A DNA stretch of 64,000 bases from Candidatus Woesearchaeota archaeon (lineage in GTDB: Archaea; Nanobdellota; Nanobdellia; Woesearchaeales; UBA10216): assembly GCA_016192905.1 (NCBI GenBank), contig JACPTG010000003.1, positions 124,001 to 188,000 on the forward strand. The letters are read 5' to 3'. Positions 39,364-42,481 of this stretch are shown here, in pieces (within the stretch, counting starts at the first letter, position 1; each line of letters starts with the position of its first letter). The translations under genes were made by a program, and so were the position numbers. A model generated the notes under the pieces. That model saw only the letters and a list, made by a program, of their open reading frames with translations. It was not told the DNA's origin and ran no database searches.

Positions 39364-39520
39364 TGCCGCCGACCGGCTTTGAACCGGCGACCTCACCGTA
39401 CAGTTAGGCTTGTCCTAAGCTGCTCCACGTGACCCAGTCAGCGTTAGTCATCGACCTTACCAGTCTCAGCGCTCATTGATTTATGAGCGTGGCGCTCTGA
39501 CCAGGCTGAGCTACGGCGGC
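39364..39520 (-). tRNA. elongator tRNA-Met (anticodon CAU) with two introns
   Basis: Acceptor GCCGCCG/CGGCGGC, A73 at 39364, D arm GCTC...GAGC, T arm GCCGG-TTCAAAG-CCGGT. The 157-nt gene must lose 82 nt. Intron 1 is 39431-39481 (51 nt, position 37/38): exon CUCA pairs with intron UGGG in a full 4-bp central helix with 3-nt bulges. Intron 2 is 39394-39424 (31 nt, position 43/44, variable region) with helix ACGU/ACGG (one A-G mismatch) and an inner GCAG/CTGT plus TTAGG/CCTAA hairpin. Splicing gives stem CCACG/CGTGG, loop CTCATAA and variable AGGTC, 75 nt in total. No CCA is encoded. Confidence 0.85.
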
Positions 39521-39560
39521 ACAAACCCAGAAGATTGGGGGCGTTTTATAAAAGTTGCGG

Positions 39561-42355: not shown

Positions 42356-42481
42356 GGGCCCGTAGCTCAGCCTGGTTAGACAGCACAAAATGCTGGACCA
42401 AAGCGCCGGTCTTATATGACCACGCTTTAAGCAAACATCTAGGAGAGCCGGATGTCGCCGGTTCAAATCCGGTCGGGCCCA
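42356..42481 (+). tRNA. tRNA-Ile (anticodon UAU) with two introns
   Basis: Body matches archaeal tRNA-Ile: GGGCCCG/CGGGCCC, TAGCTCAGCCTGGTTAG, T arm GCCGG-TTCAAAT-CCGGT, A73. The 126-nt gene must lose 51. Intron 1 is 42380-42401 (22 nt, D stem, position 22/23): GGUU (42374-42377) pairs with GACC (42396-42399), bulges AG^A and AA^A, inner stem CAGCA/TGCTG. Intron 2 is 42417-42445 (29 nt, position 37/38): CUUA pairs with UAGG. Both are canonical bulge-helix-bulge sites. Mature: GAGC D stem, CCGGT/GCCGG anticodon stem, loop CTTATAA, 75 nt. Confidence 0.87.

Follow-up and report, generated by a model that had tools for sequence, protein, structure and literature searches.

An elongator tRNA-Met gene of a Woesearchaeota-type archaeon with two predicted introns, one of them with the geometry of a box C/D guide for C34

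The interrupted tRNA-Met gene

Within the window, the 64,000-nucleotide stretch of DNA analysed here, the Rfam tRNA model (RF00005) was matched over its full length by positions 39364-39520 of the minus strand, with a score of 41.1 bits against a cut-off of 29 (E 2.9e-5 for the window). The alignment placed the acceptor, D, anticodon (27-31 CCACG with 39-43 CGTGG) and T stems, whereas ARAGORN detected no gene at 39364-39520. The 157 nt were parsed as an exon of 39 nt, an intron of 51 nt, an exon of 6 nt, an intron of 31 nt and an exon of 30 nt, leaving a mature tRNA of 75 nt. An earlier note on this DNA had proposed a 157-nt gene for a 75-nt tRNA-Met(CAU) and had suggested a covariance search as a check; the full-length match and the parse bear out its lengths, coordinates and stems. 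The parts of the gene are the following.

39544..39553, minus strand: TATA-like TTTTATAAAA, about 28 nt upstream of the mature 5' end (sequence reading only)
39482..39520, minus strand: exon 1, elongator tRNA-Met positions 1-37 (RF00005 alignment, homologs, parse)
39483-39485, minus strand: anticodon CAU within exon 1, with C34 at 39485
39431..39481, minus strand: predicted intron 1, 51 nt, position 37/38 (4-bp central helix CUCA/UGGG; homologous introns in relatives)
39425..39430, minus strand: exon 2, positions 38-43, ACGUGG (RF00005 alignment, parse)
39394..39424, minus strand: predicted intron 2 of 31 nt in the variable region, at 43/44 (the only register with a BHB; shared site in relatives)
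39364..39393, minus strand: exon 3, positions 44-73, with the AGGTC variable loop, T arm, acceptor 3' strand and discriminator A; CCA is not encoded (RF00005 alignment, parse)

The identity could be narrowed from tRNA-Met(CAU) to the elongator, as the gene combines a CAU anticodon with G1:C72 and ACG/CGU at 29-31/39-41 and lacks the initiator signature. The initiator tRNA-Met has the same anticodon; however, it carries A1:U72 and GGG/CCC at 29-31/39-41 and lies at a separate locus (L244) of the same genome, where it was located with a model of initiator tRNAs. Initiator identity was ruled out for the present gene by G1:C72 and the ACG/CGU stem. No second elongator CAU gene was found in the genome. 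A role as tRNA-Ile2(CAU), the AUA decoder with agmatidine at position 34, is unlikely, since the window carries a tRNA-Ile(UAU) gene at 42356-42481.

The host genome (G000) comprises 1.43 Mb in 6 contigs and is 95% complete. The nearest named contigs for its secretion-type ATPase are Candidatus Woesearchaeota MAGs from groundwater, with an identity of up to 84%. Only 29 tRNA genes scored above the Rfam cut-off. Inserts caused at least the initiator and parts of other genes to be missed, so that annotation with standard models leaves the tRNA set strongly incomplete. The initiator gene (L244 1501-1651, minus strand; G000:C1:602818-602968), missed by the Rfam tRNA model, apparently has three inserts (about 13/14, 29/30 and 37/38) with strong BHB motifs. 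The tRNA-Phe(GAA) gene (L025, minus strand; G000:C4:276680-276890) has a 31-nt acceptor-stem insert at about 4/5 (GGGG|...|CCT) and a D-loop insert, each with a complete BHB, and its Rfam match begins inside the second insert. The tRNA-Ile(UAU) gene (plus strand) has a D-arm insert and an anticodon-loop insert, with inserts likewise in its family relatives, and tRNA-Val(UAC) (L012 208-300, minus strand) has about 22 extra nt in the D loop.

The intron at 37/38

The 51-nt intron at 37/38 with a complete 4-bp central helix, as described in the earlier note, is supported by its homologs; the helix is CUCA/UGGG, with one G-U pair. Its predicted elements, which are listed below, extend beyond the splicing motif (n denotes intron positions).

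39470..39476, minus strand: guide-like AUGAGCG, complementary to CGCUCAU (30-36) (Watson-Crick 31-35/n2-n6 in 67/67 genes, compensatory changes at 31 and 32)
39466..39469, minus strand: D-box-like CUGA, with C34 opposite the fifth base upstream (N+5) (xxGA at such spacing in 59/59 aligned genes)
39453..39465, minus strand: short stem GAC/GUC and loop between the boxes (three pairs, each changing on both sides across homologs)
39448..39451, minus strand: C-box-like AUGA, putative kink-turn partner of the D-like box (AUGA in 58/59 aligned genes)
39433..39436, minus strand: UGGG, 3' strand of the BHB 1 central helix, pairing with CUCA 39484-39487 (sequence; GGG or GAG kept in most homologs)

Homologous 37/38 introns of 44-52 nt occur in 11 elongator tRNA-Met genes across the order, with UGAG, an xxGA box, a short stem and AUGA in common. 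A model of the intron 1 region (R2) matched 171 of the 353 genomes of the order at E <= 1e-9, in addition to 16 genomes of other orders in the class. The counts given here refer to 67 genes, comprising 59 aligned elongator genes, five Met genes from other orders and three Leu-CAA genes; this set was gathered with a model built on these introns, so that the counts favour the motif, and its related sequences are not independent.

All 59 aligned genes contain UGAG, and in each of them C34 faces the fifth base ahead of xxGA. The D-like box reads xUGA in 53 of them; the second half of the C-like box is unconserved, and the box fits RUGAUGA in its first half only. The stem between the boxes occurs as GGC/GCC, GAG/CTC, GCC/GGC, TCC/GGA, GGG/CCC and GAC/GTC. 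The covariation score is 0.389; shuffling gave 0.116 (0 of 500 shuffles), and sliding the partners gave no more than 0.118.

The pairing of the exon with the intron follows the same pattern of compensation. Exon position 31 and intron n2 form G-C in 45 genes, A-U in 18 and U-A in 4, with zero exceptions in the 67 genes, and position 32 and n3 form C-G in 65 genes and U-A in the other two. The swap at 32/n3 speaks for the exon-intron duplex itself, because position 32 is not paired in any stem of the tRNA; the two U-A genes come from one family and may represent a single event. The ends of the duplex are variable (30-n1 paired in 24/67, 36-n7 in 19/67), and the conserved duplex between exon and guide amounts to 5 bp only, less than is usual for guides acting in trans. 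In the tRNA-Leu(CAA) genes of relatives (L155, L157 and L161), the introns present the same guide geometry, which would likewise target C34.

Taken at the level of sequence, the evidence is strong that intron 1 has the geometry of a box C/D guide for 2'-O-methylation of the wobble C34. Box C/D guides direct modification to the base at N+5 from box D or D', and we read the same spacing here, together with the D-like box, the stem and AUGA, as a putative kink-turned C'/D' unit of a guide aimed at C34. The intron would work like a box C/D guide, although it is not classed as a member because it has one box pair, a half-conserved C-like box and a 5-bp duplex. A member would have two box pairs (C/D and C'/D'), and one conserved pair only was found. 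We also considered a complete two-guide C/D RNA but rejected it, since the second CUGA (in GCTGACTGGG) occurs in close relatives only and a 5'-end C box is not conserved either.

The main alternative is that intron 1 is an ordinary splicing intron, with UGAG, xxGA, the stem and AUGA forming an anticodon-sequestering hairpin or a generic kink-turn for folding or splicing. The pairing with the neighbouring exon can be seen as a simple 5-bp hairpin, which the predicted fold of the pre-tRNA shows; conservation covers only half a C/D RNA, and part of it (GGG) serves the BHB. However, a plain hairpin needs neither a fixed distance of 5 nt from C34 to xxGA, as found throughout the aligned genes, nor AUGA after a covarying stem. 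Furthermore, C/D RNAs of other archaea are known to target C34 in tRNA-Met and in tRNA-Leu(CAA) (PMC7994747); each of these tRNAs carries the guide-like intron type here. An ordinary splicing intron of this kind is rather unlikely in our view.

The guide-like reading of intron 1 has a precedent in the box C/D RNA of the tRNA-Trp intron of euryarchaea (Haloferax; Pyrococcus sR50), a known intron-borne guide (PMC4090602, PMC7994747) described as a unique example of an intron carrying a guide for its own tRNA (PMC4090602). In both cases the guide, predicted here from sequence, lies inside a tRNA intron and is aimed at C34 of the same tRNA. Intron 1 differs in the tRNA concerned (elongator Met, also Leu-CAA), in its shorter duplex and single conserved box pair, and in the order of the boxes, with the D-like box preceding the C-like box; no U39 target was seen. 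Separate guides for tRNA-Met C34 are described in Pyrococcus (PMC7994747) and in Haloferax, as sR-tMet (cited in PMC4033218). These share with intron 1 the target nucleotide and the tRNA but are free-standing RNAs, whereas the guide-like part here sits in the intron of its own target. For an intron-borne guide of elongator tRNA-Met, the literature consulted (reviews, with incomplete coverage) gave separate guide RNAs only, and the novelty is provisional. On Woesearchaeota tRNA introns, nothing on point was found in the same incomplete coverage.

A scan of the other tRNA introns in the genome for guide-like motifs returned tRNA-Tyr only, and loosely. The tRNA-Tyr(GUA) intron (L018 72-197, plus strand) is box C/D-like, with CUGA, a GCC/GGC hairpin and UGAUGAU. 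The fibrillarin and Nop genes adjoin each other on contig 3 of the genome.

The insert at 43/44 and its removal

Removal of the 31-nt insert restores a full cloverleaf, as judged from the RF00005 alignment, the parse and the uninterrupted homolog L030. The predicted elements of its splicing motif are as follows.

39427-39430, minus strand: ACGU in exon 2, 5' strand of the BHB 2 central helix (register test)
39396..39399, minus strand: ACGG, 3' strand of the BHB 2 central helix, 3/4 pairs with 39427-39430 (register test)
39400..39423, minus strand: BHB 2 inner helix GCAG/CUGU and its hairpin UUAGG/CCUAA (register test, parse)

The earlier note had placed this cut at 43/44 on the grounds that only CGTGG pairs with the CCACG stem. 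The position stands, supported by the BHB motif and the homologs, but the reasoning does not: the flanks of intron 2 share GAG, so that cuts at 42/43, 43/44, 44/45 and 45/46 all yield an identical mature RNA, and the pairing of CGTGG alone is insufficient to fix the cut. When the equivalent cuts were compared in a register test, only 43/44 had 39-41 fully paired with the 3' part of the intron together with a directly adjacent inner helix. The BHB motif selects 43/44 as the predicted cut. A cut at 42/43, 44/45 or 45/46 would fit the mature RNA equally well; however, a paired central helix and an inner helix occur together in no shifted register of the five genes with intron 2, except for a weak +1 in G001, and we regard a shifted cut as very unlikely.

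The same BHB at 43/44 is present in G000, G003, G001 and G005, with inner helices of 4, 11, 6 and 8 bp, respectively, and differing hairpin sequences; it recurs with a 5-bp inner helix in G044 (L188), which belongs to another family. The inserts measure 32 nt in G003 (L031/L141), 49 nt in G001 (L090/L142), 27 nt in G005 (L153) and 28 nt in G044. The central helix has three of four pairs in the present gene (38 mismatched) and in G003, G005 and G044, and all four in G001 (ACGU/AUGU). In shuffled inserts, the observed central and inner helices arose together in approximately 0.05-0.14% of the trials (about once per 700-1900), separately for each of four genes.

Intron 1 is kept in the nearest syntenic relatives, two of which have the insert at 43/44, while one (L030, from G007) does not. 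In L030, CGTGG-AGGTC is continuous and a T-loop insert is present instead. We read intron 2 as a real BHB intron that was gained or lost among relatives, because the homologs repeat the motif at the same site and L030 is without the insert. Among the elongator tRNA-Met genes of relatives, T-loop inserts of about 25 to 80 nt near 59/60 were seen in L030/L140, L146-L148, L150 and L151, and inserts at about 30/31 in L153, L154 and L164.

The insert might also be retained unspliced as a long, class II-like variable arm, as it holds a hairpin and sits at the site of the class II variable arm. This is highly improbable, given that the insert varies from 27 to 49 nt with differing hairpins and is absent from a syntenic relative, that its asymmetric tail pairs with 39-41 as a BHB, and that tRNA-Met belongs to class I. 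That the gene as a whole is a degenerate copy, the pseudogene alternative of the earlier note, would suit the low score of the interrupted gene (41 bits) and the ARAGORN miss, but is the least probable option of all with every stem intact, exons conserved and near-identical to those of relatives, constrained intron sequences, a TATA-like box upstream and no other elongator CAU gene found. Similar T/A-rich boxes lie upstream of the gene in L030, L031 and L090.

Intron 2 is a further case of the known variable-region BHB intron type. The earlier view that such introns are mostly reported from Thermoproteales and a few deep lineages needs widening, as they are not confined to Thermoproteales: experiments have confirmed variable-arm introns in two tRNA-Lys of Aeropyrum pernix (PMC4307357), and the listed sites of archaeal tRNA introns include 45/46 (PMC4090602). 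Common to these and to intron 2, whose excision is predicted, are a BHB-flanked insert in the variable region, cuts in 3-nt bulges and the restoration of the mature tRNA. The present case differs in the tRNA (elongator Met), the position (43/44), the organism (a Woesearchaeota-type archaeon with a single alpha-type endonuclease gene) and an outer helix that would draw on bases of another intron.

One splicing endonuclease gene was found in the genome (PF01974, C4:33744-34004), and a search of the genome for a second subunit found none. In a survey of 19 genomes of the family, 17 had an endonuclease gene, 16 as a single match and one as two partial matches. Compared with EndA of M. jannaschii, the protein shows two single-residue gaps only and no lineage-specific loop; it looks like an alpha-type enzyme that lacks the loops associated with relaxed specificity. 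Published work connects non-canonical introns with enzymes that carry additional loops (PMC12397907, PMC4033280). Of the other unusual introns examined, most show a complete 4-bp motif (tRNA-Phe 4/5 and D loop; initiator 13/14 and 29/30), and such a motif might be acceptable to an alpha-type enzyme. An alpha-type enzyme without loops, together with only three of four central pairs in BHB 2, is counted against the excision of intron 2 as proposed here.

The inner helices that flank BHB 2 are 4-11 bp long, and the outer helix is 4 bp, given that intron 1 is present: in all five genes having intron 2, positions 45-48 can pair with the final four bases of intron 1. Intron 2 is probably cut before intron 1, since this outer helix requires intron 1 to be still in place. 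The match lends weak support to this order, because 20 of the 59 elongator genes score the same 4 bp, nearly all of them without intron 2; as a proof of order, the outer-helix pairing is weakened by this control.

Proposed processing and biological meaning

We estimate a probability of roughly 0.8 that the gene encodes a functional elongator tRNA-Met of a Woesearchaeota-type (DPANN) archaeon with two introns, one at 37/38, guide-like and targeting C34, and one at 43/44. In the processing that we propose, the 5' part of intron 1 would pair with the anticodon loop (31-35), and the D-like box, the short stem and the C-like AUGA would form a kink-turn recruiting L7Ae, Nop5 and fibrillarin. Methylation of the 2'-OH of C34 is predicted to precede splicing. 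BHB 2 would be built from exon positions 39-41 paired with the 3' part of its intron, the inner hairpin and, probably, the 4-bp outer helix, and both introns would be cut out of the pre-tRNA by the archaeal tRNA splicing endonuclease.

The guide-like intron 1 is the larger result, and it goes beyond what the earlier note had claimed. More broadly, elongator tRNA-Met and tRNA-Leu(CAA) of Woesearchaeales and adjacent orders may have, in their 37/38 intron, a minimal, one-sided box C/D guide that acts in its own pre-tRNA through a 5-bp duplex to give Cm34. Where a 43/44 intron is present, its splicing motif would use the end of intron 1, so that intron 2 must leave first and methylation would be kept ahead of the final cut. 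We hold this general proposal tentatively, at slightly short of even odds.

Intron 2 adds a groundwater DPANN lineage to the few having variable-region introns, and L030 and its insert-bearing relatives form a natural presence/absence pair in synteny for the study of intron gain and loss. The exact compensatory pattern in intron 1 makes the guide idea directly testable in vitro with three well-known proteins. A guide-like intron would explain why one tRNA intron has been retained in more than 100 small genomes: it would direct the modification of the wobble base in the very tRNA that it interrupts.
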